A stretch of DNA of 64,000 nt from Selenomonas ruminantium subsp. lactilytica TAM6421. GTDB taxonomy: Bacteria > Bacillota > Negativicutes > Selenomonadales > Selenomonadaceae. A program made the position numbers and the translations under genes. The DNA lies in NCBI RefSeq assembly GCF_000284095.1, contig NC_017068.1, positions 806,001-870,000 of the forward strand, in the 5' to 3' direction. Numbering within the stretch: the first letter of the stretch is position 1; every line of letters begins with the position of its first letter. The notes beneath the pieces are model-generated. The model worked only from the letters and a program-made list of their open reading frames with translations. It was not told the DNA's origin and did not search any database. This document shows, piece after piece, positions 18,275 through 29,182 of this stretch.

Positions 18275-18293
18275 TTGAAAAGGAGTGGTAATG

Positions 18294-19079
18294 ATGAAAA
18301 AGATTTTTGCGCTGATCCTGTCGATGATGGTGCTGCTGGCCGCAGGCTGTGGCGGTGAGCAGGCTCAGACGGAGAAAAAAGCCGAGCCGGTGGAACTGCA
18401 TGTGGCGGCGGCGGCCAGCCTGACGGATGTCATGCAGGAAATGGCAGCCAACTATGAGAAGGAACACCCAAATGTGAAGATTGTCTTCAATTTCGGCAGT
18501 TCCGGTGCCTTGCAGCAGGCTATCCAGAACGGCGGACAGACGGATCTGTTTTTCTCGGCGGCCCAGAAGCAGATGAATGCTTTGGAAAAGGACGGGCTGC
18601 TGGCTGAGGGTACCCGCAAGGATCTGTTGGTCAATGAGGTGGTGCTGATCGTGCCGGCGGAAGGCGGCAAGGTTATCAAGGATTTCAGACAGCTGACGGA
18701 GGCGGATATCCGGCATATTGCCTTGGGTGAGCCCAAGGGCGTGCCGGTGGGACAGTATTCCGAGGAAGTCTTCACGAAGCTGGGGATTCTCGAGGCAATC
18801 AAAACCAAGGCCGTCTATGGCTCGGATGTGCGGCAGGTGCTGTCCTGGGTAGAATCCGGTGATGCGGATTGCGGTGTGGTCTATGCTACGGATGCGGCTG
18901 TATCCAAAAAGGTCAAAGTCGTGGCCACGGCGCCGGCAGATACTCATAAGCCCATCATCTATCCGGCAGCAGCGCTTAAAGATTCCAAGCAGCTGGACGC
19001 TGCCAAGGATTTCCTGGCCTTTGTTTCCAATGATGTAAATAAGAAGCTCTTTGAAAAATACGGCTTTGAAGTGAAATAA
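18294..19079 (+). CDS. modA: Molybdate/tungstate ABC transporter, substrate-binding lipoprotein
   Basis: A 261-aa lipoprotein: signal peptide with lipobox LAAGC, then LHVAAAASLTDVMQEMA, which carries the oxyanion-binding Ser, and FNFGSSGALQQAIQNG, the second binding loop. The ATG at 18294 is 8 bp from AGGAG; the ATG at 18291 is too close. It captures molybdate or tungstate in the periplasm for ModBC. Confidence 0.95.
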   Translation: MKKIFALILSMMVLLAAGCGGEQAQTEKKAEPVELHVAAAASLTDVMQEMAANYEKEHPNVKIVFNFGSSGALQQAIQNGGQTDLFFSAAQKQMNALEKDGLLAEGTRKDLLVNEVVLIVPAEGGKVIKDFRQLTEADIRHIALGEPKGVPVGQYSEEVFTKLGILEAIKTKAVYGSDVRQVLSWVESGDADCGVVYATDAAVSKKVKVVATAPADTHKPIIYPAAALKDSKQLDAAKDFLAFVSNDVNKKLFEKYGFEVK

Positions 19080-19101
19080 GAGATGGTTTAAGAGGTGGAT
19101 T

Positions 19102-19773
19102 ATGGAACTGGCACCACTGATGATTACCCTGCAGACGGCAGGTGTGGCAACGGTGGCGACGTTCTTTCTCGGCATTGGCCTGGCCCTGATGGTGGTTCGT
19201 ATGCAGCGCTTTCAGGGACTGGCTGATGCCGTTATTACGTTGCCCATGGTTTTGCCCCCCACTGTTGTGGGCTTTTTCCTGCTGCTGCTGTTTGGCAAGC
19301 GCAGCATGATTGGCAGATTTCTGCTGCAATTTGATATCACGCTGGTCTTTACCTGGAAGGCGGCGGTCATAGCCGCGATTGTCGTTTCGCTGCCCCTGAT
19401 GTATCGGACAGCCCGGGGGGCTTTTGAGCAGATCGACGTGAATATCATCAATGCCGCCCGCACATTGGGTGTATCGGATTGGCGCATCTTCTGGCATATC
19501 CTGCTGCCCAATGCCCGGGCGGGCATTTTGGCAGGACTGGTTCTGTCCTTTACCCGGGCCTTGGGAGAGTTTGGCGCTACCATCATGTTTGCAGGCAATA
19601 TCCCCGGCGTCACCCAGACCATGAGTACGGCTATCTATGCGGCGGTGCAGGCCAACGATTATGAACTGGCGGGGCAGTGGGCCATGGTTATCGTGGCCTT
19701 CTCTCTTGTGTTTGTCGTGCTGATGAACTGGTGGATTGCTCGGCAGAATAAGGGGGCAGCACTATGGAACTGA
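19102..19773 (+). CDS. modB: Molybdate ABC transporter permease
   Basis: A 223-aa inner-membrane permease with five to six helices. TLPMVLPPTVVGFFLLLLFG and the EAA loop (ARTLGVSDWRIFWHILLPNA) are typical of ModB, as is RALGEFGATIMFAGNIPG. It lies 22 bp after modA and overlaps modC by 10 bp. Confidence 0.95.
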   Translation: MELAPLMITLQTAGVATVATFFLGIGLALMVVRMQRFQGLADAVITLPMVLPPTVVGFFLLLLFGKRSMIGRFLLQFDITLVFTWKAAVIAAIVVSLPLMYRTARGAFEQIDVNIINAARTLGVSDWRIFWHILLPNARAGILAGLVLSFTRALGEFGATIMFAGNIPGVTQTMSTAIYAAVQANDYELAGQWAMVIVAFSLVFVVLMNWWIARQNKGAALWN

Positions 19774-20810
19774 GCGTGGATATCGAAAAGAAGCTGCGCA
19801 GTTTCACCCTGCAGGCGGATTTCACTGTGCAAGACGAAATCTTTGCCCTGCTGGGGGCTTCCGGCTGCGGCAAGAGCATGACACTCAAATGTATCGCCGG
19901 GCTGGAAACGCCGGATAGGGGACGCATTGTGCTGAATGGCCGGGTGCTCTTCGACAGCGAAGCAGGCATCAATCTGAAGCCTCAGGCCCGCAAGGTGGGG
20001 TATCTCTTCCAGAATTACGCCCTGTTTCCCAATATGACCATTGCGGAAAATATCGCCTTTGTGGCCTGCGGGAATGAAAGGGAAAAATCCTGCAAGGTAC
20101 AGGAAAATCTGGCGCGGTTCAAACTGGAGAACCTTGCACAGGCCTATCCCCATGAACTGTCCGGCGGCCAGCAGCAGCGGGCGGCGTTGGCCCGGATTCT
20201 GGCGGCAGATGCTGAGCTTCTGCTGCTGGATGAACCCTTTTCGGCTTTGGACAGTTATTTGAAATGGCAGCTGGAAATAGAGCTTGGCGATGTGCTGCAG
20301 GATTACGATGGTGCCGCCCTGCTGGTATCCCATGACCGGGGAGAGGTCTATCGTTTGGCTGACCGTATCGCCGTAATCAACCAGGGGCAGATGGAGGCAG
20401 TCCACACGAAGCATGGCCTCTTCAAAAATCCCGACACCCTGGCCGCAACTTTGCTGACTGGCTGCAAAAATATATCTGCTGCGAAAAAAATTGCCCCGGA
20501 CAAAATTGCAGCCCTCGATTGGCAGCTGGAGCTGCATGTGGCTGGAGAAGTGCCGGATCATGTGCAGTTTGCCGGCATTCGGGCCCATTATATGGAAGTG
20601 GTCACAGGGCCGGGGGAGAATATCTTTGCCATGGAGGTGGTCAAAGTGGTGGAGGATGTCTTTTCCTATCTGATCATGCTGCGCAGGCAGGGAACTTCCG
20701 GCAGACCTTTGCGGTTGGAACTTTCCAAGGAGTCCTGGAAAAAATTACAAAATCCCGCCAGCCTTTATCTGCGCCTGCCGCCAGCTGAAATCATGTTGAT
20801 GGAACGGTGA
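19764..20810 (+). CDS. modC: Molybdate ABC transporter ATPase
   Basis: A 348-aa ATPase with Walker A GASGCGKSM, Q-loop YLFQNYALFP, signature LSGGQQQRAALARI, Walker B LLLLDEPFSALD and H-loop VSHDRGEVYRLA. The C-terminal 100 residues would hold one mop/TOBE oxyanion-binding domain (FAGIRAHYMEV onward). It ends the mod operon. Confidence 0.94.
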   Translation: MELSVDIEKKLRSFTLQADFTVQDEIFALLGASGCGKSMTLKCIAGLETPDRGRIVLNGRVLFDSEAGINLKPQARKVGYLFQNYALFPNMTIAENIAFVACGNEREKSCKVQENLARFKLENLAQAYPHELSGGQQQRAALARILAADAELLLLDEPFSALDSYLKWQLEIELGDVLQDYDGAALLVSHDRGEVYRLADRIAVINQGQMEAVHTKHGLFKNPDTLAATLLTGCKNISAAKKIAPDKIAALDWQLELHVAGEVPDHVQFAGIRAHYMEVVTGPGENIFAMEVVKVVEDVFSYLIMLRRQGTSGRPLRLELSKESWKKLQNPASLYLRLPPAEIMLMER

Positions 20811-20826
20811 TGGACAATATTTGATG

Positions 20827-20855
20827 TTGCGCAATGGACAGGAATTTGCTACAAT
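20827..20855 (+). promoter_or_regulatory. Promoter of nrdD
   Basis: TTGCGC (20827-20832) and TACAAT (20850-20855) are 17 bp apart. The -10 is embedded in the first NrdR-like box (20848-20863), which would let NrdR block polymerase. Confidence 0.5.
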
Positions 20856-20926
20856 ATATACCGTTACGACAAGTCTTAACCACAATATATAGAGGGAGCG
20901 TGAGGGAAAACCACAAATATAGTGGT
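20848..20926 (+). promoter_or_regulatory. Tandem NrdR boxes upstream of nrdD
   Basis: Three related sites repeat every 31-32 bp: CTACAATATATACCGT (20848-20863), CCACAATATATAGAGG (20880-20895) and CCACAAATATAGTGGT (20911-20926). The second matches the NrdR consensus acaCwATATaTwGtgt well, and the third is one base short between its conserved C and G. Three helical turns is the spacing known for NrdR box pairs, so nrdD is probably repressed by NrdR when (d)ATP is high. Confidence 0.75.
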
Positions 20927-20937
20927 ATCCATTATTT

Positions 20938-23199
20938 ATGAATTTGAAAACTGTTACGAAGCGTTCCGGTCATACTGTACCTTATAACCGGGAGAAGATT
21001 TATAACGCCATTGCCGGAGCCAATAACGACGGCGGCCACAAAATGTCTGAAAAGGATATCGACGAAGTCACCAGTCAGGTGGAATGGGATATCCAGGACC
21101 GGGAAAATGTCAGCGTGGAGGAAATTCAGGATATCGTCGAGCAGGAGCTCATGAAGTACGACTTCTACGATATCGCCAAGAAATACATCACCTACCGCCA
21201 GAAACATGCGGAGCGCCGCATCGCTCAGAAGCATCTGATGTCCTCCTATAGGGATATCTTCTTTGCTGATGCTGTGGATGTGGACTCCAAGCGCGACAAT
21301 GCCAACATCAATACGGACGCTTCCATGGGTATCATGCTGAAGCTGGGCGCTGAGGGAGCCAAGCACTTCGTGGATAACTACGTCCTCACCGACGAGTTCC
21401 GCGAGGCAGACAAGGAGAACTGGATCCATATCCACGATAAGGATTTCTCCCTGATCACCTTCAACTGCTGCCAGATTGACCTGCTGAAGCTCTTCAAGGG
21501 CGGTTTTTCCACGGGGCACGGCTTCCTGCGCGAGCCCAATTCCATCCGTTCCTATGCCTCCCTGGCGGCCATTGCCATTCAGTCCAACCAGAATGACATG
21601 TTCGGCGGTCAGGCCATCAACGCTTTCGACTATGCCATGGCCGATGGTGTGCGCAAATCCTTCCGCAAGGCCGTGATTTCGGAGTCCCATAAGGCGCTGA
21701 TGTATCAGTTCGATACCCATGATTTCGGCACGGAAAAGGAATTCAAGACCCATTTCAAGCCGGCTATGGATTTTGCGGCTTGCAGCTATACGGAATCGCA
21801 GGCTGATCCGAAAGCCGCTGCATCCATAGACGCCATCAAGGCAGCTTTGGAAACGGTACTCAGTGAAACCTATCAGCTGCCGAATGATGAAGCGGAGCGC
21901 CTGGCCCGCAATGTCTACCGTCTGGCCTGCGCCGATGTGGTGGAAGAAACCCATCAGGCCATGGAAGCCATGATCCATAACTTCAACACCCTCCATAGTC
22001 GTGCCGGTGCGCAGGTGCCCTTCAGCTCCCTGAACTACGGCATGGACACGAGCCCCGAGGGAAGACTGGCTACCCGTGAGGTACTCAACGCCATCTGGGC
22101 CGGTCTGGGCAACGGGGAAACGCCGATTTTCCCGATTTCCGTATTCCAGCTCAAGGCTGGTGTCAACTACAATCCGGAAGATCCCAATTACGATCTCTTC
22201 CAGCAGGCCTGCAAGACCAGTGCCAAGCGCCTGTTCCCGAACTTCGTGAACATCGATGCACCATACAATCTGCAGTATTATAAGCCCGGCGATTATAATT
22301 CCACCGTGGCCACCATGGGTTGCAGAACGCGTGTCATGAGCAATGTGAACGGCCCGGAAGAGTCCGGCAGCCGCGGCAATTTCGCTTTCACCACGCTGAA
22401 TCTGCCGAAATTTGCCCTCGAAGCCAAGGGCGATATGGACAAGTTCTGGCAGCTGTTGGATAAGTACATCGAGGTCAGCCATGACTATATCCTGGCCCGA
22501 CTGGATGTCATTGCCGACAAGCATGTCTACAACTACCCGTTCCTCATGGGACAGGGGGTCTGGATGGACAGTGAAAAGCTTAAATCTGACGACAGCATCA
22601 AGGATGTATTGAAGCATGCTTCCTATTCCGTTGGTTTCTGCGGTCTGGCTGAGTGCCTCAAGGCCCTTGTCGGCAAGCATCATGGCGAAAGTGCGGAAGC
22701 CCAGGAACTGGGCCTGAAGATCGTGGGCCATATCCGCGAGCGGATGGACAAATACACGGCAGAGGAGCATATGAACTGGTCCTGCTTCGGCACGCCGGCA
22801 GAATCCACCGCCGGCCAGTTCCAGCGCTCCAACCGCAAGCAGTATGGTGTGATTGAAGGGATCACGGATCGTGATTATATGACCAACAGCAGTCATGTGC
22901 CCGTTTACTATCCCATCAAGGCCATCGACAAGATCCGCATCGAAGCGCCTTATCATGCTTTGGAAAATGCCGGTCATATCGCCTATATCGAAATGGACGG
23001 GGATCCCACGAAGAATGTCAAAGCCTTCGAACGTCTGGTACGTGCCATGCATGATGCGGACATGGGCTATTTCTCCATCAATCACCCGGTGGACCGCGAT
23101 CCTGTCTGCGGTTATACTGGTCTTATTGAAAACGAATGCCCCCATTGCCATCGCAAGGAAGTGGAAAGCGGCCGTTTTACCATCAAACGCATGAAATAA
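20938..23199 (+). CDS. nrdD: Anaerobic ribonucleoside-triphosphate reductase, large subunit lacking the glycyl-radical C-terminus
   Basis: A 753-aa class III reductase. It has an N-terminal ATP-cone (VTKRSGHTVPYNREKIYNAI), the NrdD barrel with NWIHIHDKDF and FNCCQIDLLKLFKGGFSTGH, the active-site stretch VATMGCRTRVMSN near residue 460, and a C-terminal CGYTGLIENECPHCHRKEV that corresponds to the zinc-binding region. The protein ends at FTIKRMK, where other NrdD proteins go on to the GYLG glycyl-radical loop and about 30 more residues. That segment is absent in all three frames downstream. No nrdG activase gene follows. It would reduce NTPs anaerobically if a radical-carrying partner exists. 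Confidence 0.9.
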   Translation: MNLKTVTKRSGHTVPYNREKIYNAIAGANNDGGHKMSEKDIDEVTSQVEWDIQDRENVSVEEIQDIVEQELMKYDFYDIAKKYITYRQKHAERRIAQKHLMSSYRDIFFADAVDVDSKRDNANINTDASMGIMLKLGAEGAKHFVDNYVLTDEFREADKENWIHIHDKDFSLITFNCCQIDLLKLFKGGFSTGHGFLREPNSIRSYASLAAIAIQSNQNDMFGGQAINAFDYAMADGVRKSFRKAVISESHKALMYQFDTHDFGTEKEFKTHFKPAMDFAACSYTESQADPKAAASIDAIKAALETVLSETYQLPNDEAERLARNVYRLACADVVEETHQAMEAMIHNFNTLHSRAGAQVPFSSLNYGMDTSPEGRLATREVLNAIWAGLGNGETPIFPISVFQLKAGVNYNPEDPNYDLFQQACKTSAKRLFPNFVNIDAPYNLQYYKPGDYNSTVATMGCRTRVMSNVNGPEESGSRGNFAFTTLNLPKFALEAKGDMDKFWQLLDKYIEVSHDYILARLDVIADKHVYNYPFLMGQGVWMDSEKLKSDDSIKDVLKHASYSVGFCGLAECLKALVGKHHGESAEAQELGLKIVGHIRERMDKYTAEEHMNWSCFGTPAESTAGQFQRSNRKQYGVIEGITDRDYMTNSSHVPVYYPIKAIDKIRIEAPYHALENAGHIAYIEMDGDPTKNVKAFERLVRAMHDADMGYFSINHPVDRDPVCGYTGLIENECPHCHRKEVESGRFTIKRMK

Positions 23200-23257: not shown

Positions 23258-24361
23258 TTGGACAAGAAGACAGTGGCCGTGGCCATGAGCGGCGGCGTGG
23301 ACAGTTCCCTGACAGCGGCATTGCTGCTGGAGCAGGGCTATGAGGTGCTGGGCATAACCATGCTGCTGACGGAGGAAGGCCGCAGCGAGACCGTTGATGT
23401 GGCTGCCGGCGAGGAGCCGGATTGCGTACGGGATGCCAAAAAAGTCGCGGAGGCTTTGGGGATCCGGCATTATGTGGCGGATTTCCGGCAGGAGTTCCGG
23501 AAAAATGTCATCGATTATTTCCTGGATGAATATGCCAAGGGGCGCACGCCCAATCCCTGTGTCATGTGCAACCCGTCCATGAAGTTTGGCCTGCTGCTGG
23601 ATAAGGCGAAGGAATTGGGGGCGGATTTCCTGGCTACGGGGCATTATGCCCGCATTGGCCAGCTGGACAATGGACGCTATGTGGTGAAGAAGGGCCTGGA
23701 CGAGCATAAGGATCAGTCCTATGCCCTGCACCGCCTGCCTCAGCCCATCCTGCAGCATATCCTGCTGCCCTTGGGGGATATGACCAAGGAGCATGTGCGG
23801 GAGCTGGCAGAGAACATGGATCTGCCCGTGGCCCATAAGGCTGAGAGCCAGGAAATCTGCTTTGTGCCCCATGATGATTACAAGGCCTTCCTGCGCAAGC
23901 ATAAGCCGGGCTGCCTGCACAAGGGCAATATCGTCAATGATGCCGGTGATGTGCTGGGCAGGCATGAGGGCGTGCCCCTTTATACCATTGGCCAGCGCAA
24001 GGGCTTGGGCATTGCCGCTCCCGAACCCCTTTATGTGCATAAGCTGGATGTGAAGCGCAATGAAGTGGTGGTAGGCGGCAATAAGTCTGTTTTCGCAACT
24101 GGTCTGCTGGCCAGCGATCCGAACTGGATTGCTATCGATAAGCTGGAAGACGGCATGGAATTTGGCGCCAAGATCCGCTATGGCAAGCGGGAGGCCAAGG
24201 CAAAGCTTTCCCTGCAGGCAGATGGCCTGCTGAAAGTGGAGTTTGCCGAACCCCAGCGGGCGGTTACGCCGGGACAGTTCGTAGTCTTCTATGAAGGCGA
24301 TGTGCTGGTGGGCGGCGCCATGATCGAGCAGCCGCTTGGCGCACAAGAGAAGACGAAATGA
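23258..24361 (+). CDS. mnmA: tRNA-specific 2-thiouridylase
   Basis: A 367-aa enzyme that thiolates U34 of tRNA(Lys/Glu/Gln). The PP-loop AMSGGVDSSLTAALLLEQGY is at residues 8-27, the first catalytic cysteine is in NPCVMCNPSMKFG, the second in ESQEICFVP, and FLATGHYARI is also conserved. It starts at TTG after TAGGAGGAG. Length is normal. Confidence 0.96.
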   Translation: MDKKTVAVAMSGGVDSSLTAALLLEQGYEVLGITMLLTEEGRSETVDVAAGEEPDCVRDAKKVAEALGIRHYVADFRQEFRKNVIDYFLDEYAKGRTPNPCVMCNPSMKFGLLLDKAKELGADFLATGHYARIGQLDNGRYVVKKGLDEHKDQSYALHRLPQPILQHILLPLGDMTKEHVRELAENMDLPVAHKAESQEICFVPHDDYKAFLRKHKPGCLHKGNIVNDAGDVLGRHEGVPLYTIGQRKGLGIAAPEPLYVHKLDVKRNEVVVGGNKSVFATGLLASDPNWIAIDKLEDGMEFGAKIRYGKREAKAKLSLQADGLLKVEFAEPQRAVTPGQFVVFYEGDVLVGGAMIEQPLGAQEKTK

Positions 24362-24665: not shown

Positions 24666-24726
24666 TAGTGTGGGGTATTCAGGCCGACGGCTGTTTGTCG
24701 TATGTTCTGTTTGGCACGATTATTAG

Positions 24727-24773
24727 ACGGCAATCTTTTTGCATTCGCGAAAAGGTTGCCGTTTTTATTTTTG
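24727..24773 (+). terminator. Riboswitch expression-platform terminator
   Basis: ACGGCAATCTTTT pairs with AAAAGGTTGCCGT (one G-T pair) around GCATTCGCG, followed by TTTTTATTTTTG. It stands 30 bp before the mutA start. Confidence 0.85.
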
Positions 24774-24803
24774 TGTTTACCCCGAAAAAGAGGAGGCTGT
24801 GCT

Positions 24804-26981
24804 ATGAGTAACGAAACCGGTGGCGAGCTGGATCTGCAGGCTATCTTGAAGAAAGCCGAGCAGCAGACAGACTTTCCCGATGTGCCTTTGGACGAGTTTA
24901 CCCCGCCCACTTATGAGGAGTGGAAGGAAGCCTGTATCGCCCTCTTGAAGGGAGCGCCCTTTGAGAAGAAAATGTACACCAAAACCTATGAGGGCATTAC
25001 CTTTGATCCCATGTATTTCCGCAAGGATACCGAAGACATCCTGCCGAAGAATTCCTTCCCGGGTATGGACGATTTCCTGCGTGGTGCCCAGCCCAGCGGA
25101 TATCTGGGAAAACCCTGGGGGATAGCGCAGGCCTGTGATGAAACCATGCCCGCAGAAAACAATGAGCTGCTGCGCCACGAGCAGGAGAAAGGCTCCACCA
25201 TCTACCATATCAAGCTGGACAGTGCCAGCCTGAAGGCGCAGGATGTGCGCAAGGCAGCTGCCCCCGGGGACGAGGGCGTGTCGGTGACCACCCTGGATGA
25301 TATGCACACCTTGCTCAATGGCCTGAAACTCGATAAATATCCTCTTTACCTCTATGCTGGGGAATCGGCGCTGCCGATGCTTTCCCTGTTTGCCGGGGCT
25401 TTGAAGGCCTCTGGTCAGGATCTAAAGCAGATCCGGGGCATCGTCGGGGCTGATCCCTTAGGGGAATTGGCTGCTGGCGGCAAGAATAGCAAAGATACGG
25501 CGAGCCTTTACGATGAAATGGCCCGCTGTGCCAAATGGGCCATTGCCCATGCTCCGGGGCTCAAGACTGTGTTCGTGCGCAGTGATGTCTACAGCCGGGG
25601 CGGTGCCAACGACGTGCAGGAGTCGGCTTATACCCTGGCCACGGCCGTAGCCTATCTGCGGGCCATGCTGGAACGGGGGCTCTCCATTGAAGAAGCTGCC
25701 GGGCAGATCATGTTCGGTTTCTCCATGGGGGCCAACTTCTTCCTGCAGATTGCCAAGCTCCGTGCCCTGCGTCCGCTCTGGTCGCAGATCGTGGAGGCCT
25801 TTGGTGGCAGCAAGGAAGCCCAGCGCATGCATATCCATGCCCGTCCGGCCTTGTTCTTCAAGACCGTCTATGATCCCTATGTCAATATGCTTCGGAATAC
25901 CACGGAAATCTTCTCCGGTGTCGTGGGCGGTGTGGATTCCTTTGAGAGCTCGCCCTTTGATGAGCCCATCCGCAAAGGCGACGAATTCTCCCGCCGCATT
26001 GCCCGGAATGTGCAGATCATCCTGCAGGAGGAATTCGGCCTGCTACAGCCCATCGATCCCGCAGGCGGTTCCTGGGCTGTGGAGACTTTGACCAAGCAGA
26101 TGAAGGAAAAGATCTGGGCTGAGTTCCAGGTCATCGAGGGCAAGGGCGGCATCCTGAAAGCCTTGCAGGAAGGGTATCCGCAAAGTGAGATTGCGGGCGT
26201 TCTGGCGGCCCGTTTCAAGGCTTCGGAAACCCGCAAGGACAGGATCGTAGGCAACAATATGTATCCGAATATGACGGAAACCCTGCTGGATCCGCGTCCC
26301 GAAGATATGGCTGAGAATAAGAAACAGCGCACGGCTCAGGTAGAGGAATATCTGGCTGATATTGATGAAGCCTTCAAGCTTGAAATGCTGACAGCCCTGA
26401 AGGCTGGCAAGGACGAAGGGGAACTGGCCATTGCTGCGGCTCTGGCTGGCGCCACTACGGAAGAGATTGCCGGTGCTCTGGCTGGCGGAGTGAGCGAAGA
26501 AGTCGCGTCCATTGCCCCCCATCGCTGGAGCGAGCGCTTTGAAGCCCTGCGGAAGCTGACGGAGGATTACAAGGCAGAACATCACGACAATGTCAAGATC
26601 TTCCTGGCCAATATGGGGCCCATCCCACAGCACAAGGCCAGAGCGGATTTCACCACGGGCTTCCTGCAGGTAGGTGCCTTTGAGGTGCTGACCAATAACG
26701 GCTTCCCCACGGTGGAGGAAGCAGCCCAGGCAGCCAAGGAATCCGGGGCGGATGCCGTGGTTATCTGCTCCACGGATGCGACTTATCCCGAAATCGTGCC
26801 GGAGCTGGCACCGAAACTTCATGAGGTCCTGCCCAATGCCACGGTATTCTTGGCCGGAGCGGCACCGAAAGACCTGCTTGAAACCTACAATGAAGCGGGC
26901 ATTGATGAGTATATCTCCGTCAAGGCCAACTGCTATAAGATCCTGCAGCTCCTGCAGCAGAAGAAAGGGATGATTGCATAA
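24804..26981 (+). CDS. mutA: Methylmalonyl-CoA mutase, small (beta) subunit
   Basis: A 725-aa non-catalytic subunit of the adenosylcobalamin-dependent mutase that interconverts succinyl-CoA and (R)-methylmalonyl-CoA, the central step of propionate formation by the succinate route. The barrel domain begins near [35 protein letters not shown] and [14 protein letters not shown] are family motifs. The C-terminal B12-like domain lacks the DxHxxG cobalamin ligand, as expected of MutA. The start at 24804 follows AGGAGG. Its stop shares one base with the mutB start. Confidence 0.95.
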
Positions 26982-29182
26982 TGGGAAGCTTTACGAACCC
27001 TGACTTTACCAATATGAGCCTGCGGGAACCTACGGGGGCTGATGTCAAAGAGTGGGAAAAACTCTTCAGCGCACAGGCCGGTGCAGATTTCGACGCTTAT
27101 ACCCGCCGCACCATGGAACACATTCCGGTAAAGCCTTTATATAACCATGACGAATATGACCATATGAACCATCTGGATTTTGCCAGCGGCATTCCGCCCT
27201 GCCTGCGCGGGCCGTACTCCACCATGTACGTCTTCCGTCCCTGGACCGTGCGTCAGTACGCCGGTTTCTCCACGGCAGAGGAATCCAACGCATTCTATCG
27301 GCGCAATCTGGCAGCCGGTCAGAAAGGTCTGTCCATTGCCTTTGACCTGCCGACGCACCGCGGCTACGATGCGGATAACCCCCGTGTTGTAGGTGATGTG
27401 GGTAAGGCTGGCGTATCCGTGTGCTCCATGCTGGATATGAATATCCTGTTCTCGGGGATTCCTCTCGATCAGATGTCCGTATCCATGACCATGAACGGCG
27501 CCGTGCTGCCGATTCTGGCCTTCTTTATCCAGTCCGGCGTGGAGCAGGGTGTGGATAAGAAGATCATGGCGGGCACCATCCAGAACGATATCCTGAAAGA
27601 GTTCATGGTGCGTAACACCTATATCTATCCGCCGGAAATGTCCATGCGCATCATCGGTGATATCTTCGAATACACCACGAAATACATGCCGAAGTTCAAC
27701 AGCATCTCAATTTCCGGTTACCATATGCAGGAGGCCGGTGCTCCGGCCGATATCGAGCTGGGCTATACCCTGGCAGATGGTCTGGAATACATCCGCACGG
27801 GTATCAATGCCGGCCTGCCGGTGGATGCCTTTGCCAAGCGTCTGTCCTTCTTCTGGGCCATCGGCAAGAACTACTTCATGGAAGTGGCCAAGATGCGGGC
27901 GGCGCGCGTGCTCTGGGCGAAGATCGTCAAATCCTTTGGCGCTCAGGAACCCAAGTCCATGGCACTTCGTACCCATTGTCAGACTTCGGGTTGGTCCCTT
28001 ACGGCACAGGATCCCTTCAACAATATCTCCCGCACGGCTATGGAGGCCATGGGCGCGGCCCTGGGCCATACCCAGTCCCTGCATACCAATGCCCTGGACG
28101 AGGCCATTGCCCTGCCGACGGACTTCTCGGCCCGCATTGCCCGCAATACGCAGCTCTATATCCAGGACGAGACCAAGGTCTGCAAGATCATCGATCCCTG
28201 GGGCGGCTCCTATTATGTGGAGGCCCTTACCAACGAGATCATTCGCCGTGCCTGGGCCCATATTCAGGAAGTCGAGGCCTTGGGCGGCATGGCCAAGGCT
28301 ATCTCCACGGGTTTGCCCAAGATGCGTATCGAGGAAGCGGCAGCCCGCCGTCAGGCTCAGATCGACTCGGGCAACGAGACCATTGTGGGCTTGAACAAAT
28401 ACCGGCTGGAGAAGGAAGATCCCCTGGAGATCCTGGCCATCGACAATACTGCCGTGCGCAATGCCCAGGTGGAACGCCTCGAAAAACTGCGGCGTGAACG
28501 CAATGAGGACGATGTGCGCCGGGCCCTTGAGGCCATCACGAAAGCAGCCGATAGCCGTGATAACGGCAATCTGCTGGAATGCGCTGTGGAAGCTGCTCGG
28601 GTGCGTGCGTCTTTGGGCGAGATTTCCGACGCAGTGGAAAAGGTTTCTGGCCGCTATCAGGCGGTTATTCATACCATTTCGGGAGTCTATTCTTCCGAGT
28701 TCACAGACAAGACCGAGCTGGATAAAGCCCGGGCTATGGCCGACGAGTTCGAAGAACTCACAGGCCGCCGTCCCCGCATCTTTGTAGCCAAGATGGGACA
28801 GGACGGTCACGACCGCGGTCAGAAAGTTATTGCTTCGTCCTTCGCCGATATGGGCTGGGACGTTGATGTGGGCCCGCTGTTCCAGACACCGGAGGAAACG
28901 GCACAGGATGCTGTGGATAACGATGTGCATATGGTGGGCTTCAGTTCACTGGCGGCGGGGCATAACACCCTCCTGCCCCAGCTGGTGGATGAACTCAAAA
29001 AACTGGGCCGTGAGGATATCATGGTCTGCATCGGCGGTGTCATCCCCGTGCAGGATTATGACAACCTCTATAAACACGGCGCAGTAGCTATCTTTGCCCC
29101 AGGAACCAATATTCCTGAGGCTGGTATAAAGCTTTTGAACCTGCTGCTTGACCGGGCGAAAGAAGAACTGGCCGAGGAGTAA
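26981..29182 (+). CDS. mutB: Methylmalonyl-CoA mutase, large (alpha) catalytic subunit
   Basis: A 733-aa catalytic subunit. The barrel carries [40 protein letters not shown] and [19 protein letters not shown]. The C-terminal cobalamin domain has [19 protein letters not shown] with the DxHxxG histidine ligand near residue 608, and [16 protein letters not shown]. It is translationally coupled to mutA (TAATG). Confidence 0.98.

Follow-up and report, generated by a model that had tools for sequence, protein, structure and literature searches.

This locus raises the question of how a class III ribonucleotide reductase (RNR) could work when its catalytic chain ends before the segment expected to carry the radical. 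Class III RNR has been described with the glycyl radical on the C-terminal domain of the catalytic chain (PMC9531940). The stretch analysed, here called the window, comprises 64,000 nucleotides of the genome of Selenomonas ruminantium subsp. lactilytica TAM6421 and contains an nrdD open reading frame (ORF) at 20938-23199 (+), which encodes 753 amino acids and a stop, with the C-terminus ...CGYTGLIENECPHCHRKEVESGRFTIKRMK followed by TAA. As the original prediction had pointed out, this chain breaks off after FTIKRMK, between the zinc-site region and the expected glycyl-radical loop. We located the missing loop within a separate protein of ~95 amino acids (...FERIRRITGYLVGTIDRWNDAKRAEEHDRVKH...) encoded elsewhere in the same genome, and on the evidence of the genes and their conserved motifs we consider it very probable (roughly 0.88) that the window NrdD forms the catalytic half of a class III RNR made of two chains, with the loop residing on this small protein.

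The window NrdD has the NRDD barrel, the ATP-cone, the finger-loop Cys462 and the first-strand Cys177 of class III RNR; the feature missing from the chain is the glycyl-radical loop, which is encoded as a second gene. The Pfam NRDD match spans profile positions 1-534 of 562 and the ATP-cone match positions 2-87 of 88, while NCBIfam NF005497 is matched over positions 3-713 of 746 with 950.7 bits (cut-off 764). These profile matches and the invariant catalytic residues (Table 1) bear out the earlier description of the barrel, ATP-cone and zinc-region blocks as otherwise intact. The predicted fold (structures were predicted for single chains only) matches NrdD of Prevotella copri, 8p2s, with Z 39.8 and a root-mean-square deviation of 2.6 over 531 aligned residues (model range 127-716), and the P. 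copri protein is a formate-dependent enzyme (PMC11226230). The zinc site has Asp in place of the first cysteine (DxxC...CxxC) in 36/36 aligned NrdDs, fused ones included, so this substitution is unrelated to the split. The absence of a glycyl segment in other frames, also claimed earlier, was upheld by a pattern search with 0 matches in six frames of the whole 64-kb window; a looser pattern matched once, at 28297, within the frame of another large ORF. No nrdG lies directly 3' of nrdD, where the next large ORF begins at 23258.

A search of the whole genome with the NRDD model returned the window nrdD plus a pair of small ORFs whose matches are confined to the final part of the model, and no second full-length NrdD was found by this search. 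One of the small genes, with the product MMVNDVAVTVDGL...FERIRRITGYLVGTIDRWNDAKRAEEHDRVKHTIMH, stands directly upstream of nrdG at a distance of ~1.8 Mb from nrdD. It has its own start and a ribosome-binding-like sequence, and nrdG begins two bases past its stop. This nrdG is the only one above the cut-off in the whole genome. The earlier statement that no nrdG follows is right for the locus, but the gene does occur ~1.8 Mb away, beside the missing segment. The small protein matches only the tails of the NrdD models (NF011292, 584-617 of 618; PF13597, 532-562 of 562), and a Pfam scan of two small proteins with E up to 0.001 gave NRDD only and no Gly_radical domain, the type found in pyruvate formate-lyase (PFL). 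Its loop is nearly identical to that of P. copri NrdD, RITGYLVGTTDRWN, and the glycine of RITGY is Gly68 when counted from the ATG at L003:1327. When 69 small proteins were combined into a profile, it matched chain 8p23 of P. copri NrdD (E 9e-13) over 695-739, where the radical Gly711, Tyr712 and Arg719 named in PMC11226230 lie; the numbering of the 8p23 chain is offset by 4 from that of the paper, as judged from Cys416. The small protein also carries an extra conserved N-terminal module of ~60 amino acids, not seen in fused NrdD tails, with a predicted beta-alpha-beta-beta structure (for the whole protein, mean predicted local distance difference test (pLDDT) 79 and predicted template modelling score 0.54).

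The two genes occur together across the family. Among the matches listed for 101 Selenomonadaceae genomes (100 drawn plus the present one), which is the scope of all family-survey counts, a truncated NrdD is present in 96, and all 96 also have a small stand-alone gene. By comparison, the small gene occurs in 0/3 genomes with full-length NrdD only, and one genome (G027) has neither gene. In 28 of the 96 the small gene is directly downstream of nrdD, that is, within 400 bases on the same strand. When 61 family loci were examined, some of them from one genome, the small gene was stand-alone in 56; nrdG adjoined it in 50 of these by a strict script and in four more (L103, L120, L128 and L138) by eye, the script having overlooked overlapping nrdG frames there. 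Of the options left by the original prediction, that of a separate small radical subunit is thus the one favored, both by this co-occurrence and by the position of the small gene before nrdG. Seven genomes (G020, G052, G053, G060 with locus L264, G067, G086 and G090) combine two truncated NrdDs with one small gene, and a single radical subunit may serve two catalytic chains there.

The end of the chain is itself conserved. Among 80 named orthologue loci, titled mostly Selenomonas, Mitsuokella, Centipeda, Anaerovibrio, Quinella and uncultured Selenomonadaceae, 72 stop before the loop, six carry it (L068, L069, L070, L071, L078 and L079) and two are cut by contig ends (L072 and L076); the shared end point therefore holds for 72/78 uncut loci, which are not all independent because some come from one isolate. 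A class I or II RNR catalytic subunit was found in 20/101 family genomes, 16 of them among the 96 with truncated NrdD. When these 16 are set aside, together with four others that encode a full-length NrdD as well, the truncated NrdD is the sole RNR catalytic subunit found in 76/101 genomes and so should work. The 76 include the single-contig genomes G085, of the same genus, and G006, G007, G057, G083 and G100.

The arrangement also extends beyond the family. The order nrdD-small gene-nrdG, with nrdG recognized by motif, occurs in metagenome-assembled genomes (MAGs) of Oscillospiraceae (L082) and Deltaproteobacteria (L083), and nrdD-small gene in a second Oscillospiraceae MAG (L081). In two genomes of another family (G132 and G174), a small ORF comes after a truncated NrdD; its loop is divergent (RVRRVTGYFCK in G132), with a match below the Pfam cut-off, and in G132 an nrdG-like ORF adjoins it. 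In G190 the NrdD is likewise truncated, and the small gene is not linked to it. A loop match was obtained in 69/149 sampled genomes of the phylum, mostly in long frames representing full-length NrdD. In a tree of 85 NrdDs, fused and split forms are interleaved, with a minimum of 8 state changes, 7 of them forced by starred branches, and split L087 groups with full-length L085. The set was reduced from 127 to 85 by excluding ORFs longer than 860 amino acids or open at the 3' end and then rows more than 93% identical, and the label of L265 was corrected from fused to split by hand. The number of switches is rough, since this is a quick LG+G4 tree with long branches. Judged from these sequences, detachment or re-attachment of the glycyl loop seems to have happened repeatedly, as would fit a similar function in either state.

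The case for two chains rests on gene content, conserved motifs, co-occurrence, the nrdG neighborhood and the missing other RNR in most sampled relatives, and from these we infer complex formation, radical installation and transfer, activity and regulation. In the proposed mechanism, NrdG with S-adenosylmethionine would take a hydrogen from Gly68 of the small subunit, whose loop would dock into the NrdD barrel beside Cys462. The radical would then move to Cys462, and the thiyl radical would reduce nucleoside triphosphates with formate, as expected for the Asn481 type, with the ATP-cone presumably regulating the catalytic chain. The earlier note of NrdR boxes upstream of nrdD agrees with a paired-pattern search for ACAATATATA, which gave one match against 0 in 100 shuffles; a mismatch-tolerant NrdR-box consensus was rejected as not specific (7 matches against 2.47 expected). 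Two palindromes ~32 bp apart also lie upstream of the small gene-nrdG pair, around TTGAC and TATAAT, and are kept in six genomes of the genus. The paired palindromes at both loci resemble NrdR boxes; their presence suggests that nrdD and the small gene-nrdG pair may be co-regulated by NrdR.

Several observations weigh against a two-chain enzyme. The predicted NrdD model has pLDDT below 50 at residues 735-739 and 741-753, and the N-terminal module of the small protein has no significant match in the Protein Data Bank (best E 0.35), so that its docking mode is without a template. The small gene is not adjacent to nrdD in 68/96 assemblies (a few nrdDs are near contig ends) and is interrupted in 3/96 (G084, G088 and G098); the NrdD match is in pieces, through broken contigs or insertions, in 10/96; in G022 nrdD is cut by a contig end and the small gene was not found; and in L087 and L125 no nrdG was seen next to the small gene. 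The present genome moreover encodes a class II-like RNR (L274, C6:59737-61179; class read by eye) amid short unknown genes, and NrdD therefore need not be essential in this strain. This second enzyme, and a frame that stops before an essential loop, are what would be expected if NrdD were dead through an inactivating truncation or an assembly error and the organism relied on the other RNR. However, an assembly error is ruled out by the same end in the 72 uncut orthologue loci, and a pseudogene by that conserved end, the invariant catalytic residues, the tracking of the small gene and the lack of any other RNR catalytic subunit found in the 76 genomes, single-contig G085 included. The inactivating truncation that the original prediction had allowed for is contradicted by the same evidence, and we regard a dead NrdD as very improbable.

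It is also unlikely, if a little less so, that the small protein has no role beyond that of a spare part for repair, like YfiD for PFL, and that NrdD uses a non-glycyl mechanism or some other radical source. Small proteins beside full-length NrdD do occur (G158, G173, G198, G231, G264, G278 and G279), and such a role is plausible there, but split genomes have no in-chain loop to repair, the small gene tracks the truncation and it usually adjoins nrdG. The comparison with YfiD, made earlier, stands for the likely mode of action, except that the small protein supplies a segment that was never in the chain, not one lost to oxygen; a non-glycyl mechanism, the other option then raised, is unnecessary. 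Alternatively, the two pieces might be joined into an ordinary NrdD by trans-splicing, a split intein or readthrough. Split-intein genes are known in other systems, the Quinella-type small genes have an insertion between RITG and YLVG, and in L082 NrdD and the small ORF share one frame with a single stop between them. Neither end has an intein-like sequence by eye, however, and the small protein keeps its own start, ribosome-binding-like sequence and N-terminal module unlike fused tails, so that joining appears hardly credible.

Two kinds of interruption were observed in these genes. In L258, L259, L260, L262 and L263, from Quinella-type and related genomes, an insert of ~0.25-0.8 kb follows straight after the radical glycine codon of the small gene; that of L258 contains an HNH-like ORF by eye. 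The insert is probably a self-splicing element, and a search of L258-L263 for self-splicing RNA gave no Rfam match with E up to 0.1. Intein-like interruptions of NrdD frames (~940-1110 amino acids), near profile positions 259-265, are present in G058:C2, G088:C81, G098:C67 and G084:C60.

The second small gene of the present genome lies in a prophage (L254 10073-10399; L256 13694-15394; L255, C1 ~1.199-1.233 Mb) that also has genes for an integrase, a terminase, a portal protein and a major head protein. It stands right after ParA/ParB-like genes, and the prophage end adjoins a pair of ORFs that we take to be pflB/pflA-like. Relatives of the small protein are encoded by 282 IMG/VR stretches. 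Among the best 80 of these, a script counted 60 as stand-alone because their flanks contained no NrdD and no NrdG (including L211, which is cut by a contig end), 10 as lying within a full-length NrdD and 10 as having NrdD nearby (including L191, a cut fused gene). Genes near the viral small gene include portal, integrase and tail genes. For 28 of the 80, hand-chosen and mostly longer, the whole viral records were inspected: 26 hold the small gene only and two also a truncated NrdD, although the records may be fragments and none was tallied as 90% complete. A tblastn search with the prophage copy against 50,697 INPHARED records matched 14, none covering 80% of the query; two were C. difficile phages, matched in annotated nrdD/nrdG genes, and 11 were unannotated gut phage sequences. 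As these matches are few and partial, it is mainly the IMG/VR fragments that support a stand-alone form in phages. Of the stand-alone copies in genomes with full-length NrdD, five are at chromosomal loci by eye and one (L267) is phage-like. Stand-alone loop proteins without phage neighbors by eye (L266, L268, L270, L271 and L272) would fit, by analogy, as candidate RNR spare parts. A separate loop chain could allow cheap replacement of a radical subunit cleaved by oxygen, possibly with supply by phages. A generally exchangeable radical subunit, with one serving two NrdDs per cell, chromosomal spares for full-length NrdD and phages powering or repairing the host RNR, is a more tentative proposal that we rate at slightly below even odds.

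Natural splits of RNR genes have precedents. One is the two-gene class II enzyme NrdJa/NrdJb, reportedly from Pseudomonas aeruginosa (PMC4520616). Its C-terminal part is likewise encoded separately (PMC9669993), but the enzyme uses a cobalamin radical, which is not located on the detached C-terminal chain. In phages, nrdD of phiAS4 consists of three broken coding regions of a cause not known, and nrdA of Aeh1 is divided into two genes and still works; these share with the present case an RNR gene in pieces, nrdD in that of phiAS4, but represent neighboring fragments, introns or inteins in single phages rather than a conserved, separately located subunit (PMC3653736). GrcA/YfiD of Escherichia coli and Y06I of phage T4 are glycyl-radical spare parts for PFL, the only ones validated, with spare parts for other glycyl radical enzymes considered possible (PMC8683613). 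Our protein resembles them as a small free-standing glycyl-loop protein that is also phage-carried and is presumed to act in trans. Unlike GrcA/YfiD, it matches NrdD and not Gly_radical models, is usually beside nrdG and is apparently obligatory in Selenomonadaceae; by analogy it would work like GrcA without being a member of that family. With the NrdD/NrdG systems of P. copri (8p23 series; PMC11226230) and T4 (NrdD 1h78) the window NrdD shares the ATP-cone, the barrel, both catalytic cysteines, the formate-type Asn, the zinc-site region, NrdG and, for P. copri, a near-identical loop, whereas here a second polypeptide, which has the extra module and is encoded 1.8 Mb away, carries the loop and tail. 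By its sequence, the window NrdD descends from class III RNRs and presumably functions as one, in two chains; it is not a standard one-chain NrdD. We found no description of a class III RNR with its glycyl radical on a separate subunit in the open literature, subscription papers being mostly outside the search, which covered excerpts of PMC4390871, PMC9531940, PMC9669993, PMC12288474, PMC3653736, PMC11528403, PMC3019208, PMC11226230, PMC12662201 and PMC8683613. It may be that the small ORFs are already annotated in databases as fragments of NrdD.

Table 1. Coordinates of the nrdD features in the window and of the associated genes elsewhere in the genome
Feature	Position	Strand	Remarks
NrdR-box-like pair, ACAATATATA x2	20851..20891	+	upstream of nrdD; starts 31 bp apart; paired-pattern search
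ATP-cone, residues 5-91	20950..21210	+	PF03477, E 3.2e-23
Cys177 of NrdD	21466..21468	+	equivalent by alignment to P. copri NrdD catalytic Cys171; identical in 36/36 rows
Cys462 (MGCR) of NrdD	22321..22323	+	equivalent by alignment to P. copri NrdD radical-initiator Cys416; identical in 36/36 rows
Asn481 of NrdD	22378..22380	+	equivalent by alignment to P. copri NrdD Asn435 (formate type); identical in 36/36 rows
Zinc-site region, Asp721...Cys724...Cys734-x2-Cys737	23098..23148	+	presumed to bind zinc; chain stops 16 residues on
Stop codon TAA	23197..23199	+	full-length NrdDs run on into the glycyl loop here
Second small-gene copy, prophage	1211102-1211398	+	same genome, outside the window
Small glycyl-loop protein gene	G000:C1:2635873-2636160	+	~95 amino acids; directly upstream of nrdG; outside the window
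nrdG	2636162-2636656	+	TIGR02491, 150.6 bits (cut-off 126.1); outside the window

Of the neighbors of nrdD in the window, those upstream at 18285-20810 look like a molybdate ABC transporter (presumably modABC), and those downstream at 24702-29182 look, on our assumption, like two methylmalonyl-CoA mutase subunits.

Selenomonadaceae thus seem to make their DNA precursors with an RNR that keeps its radical on a subunit of its own, in formal resemblance to class I RNR. If true, this would provide a natural system in which the installation and transfer of a radical in trans could be studied. At the level of genes, the small ORFs are candidates for the kind of stand-alone glycyl protein that PMC8683613 thought possible beyond PFL, and they suggest a minimal route by which phages may support host nucleotide metabolism.
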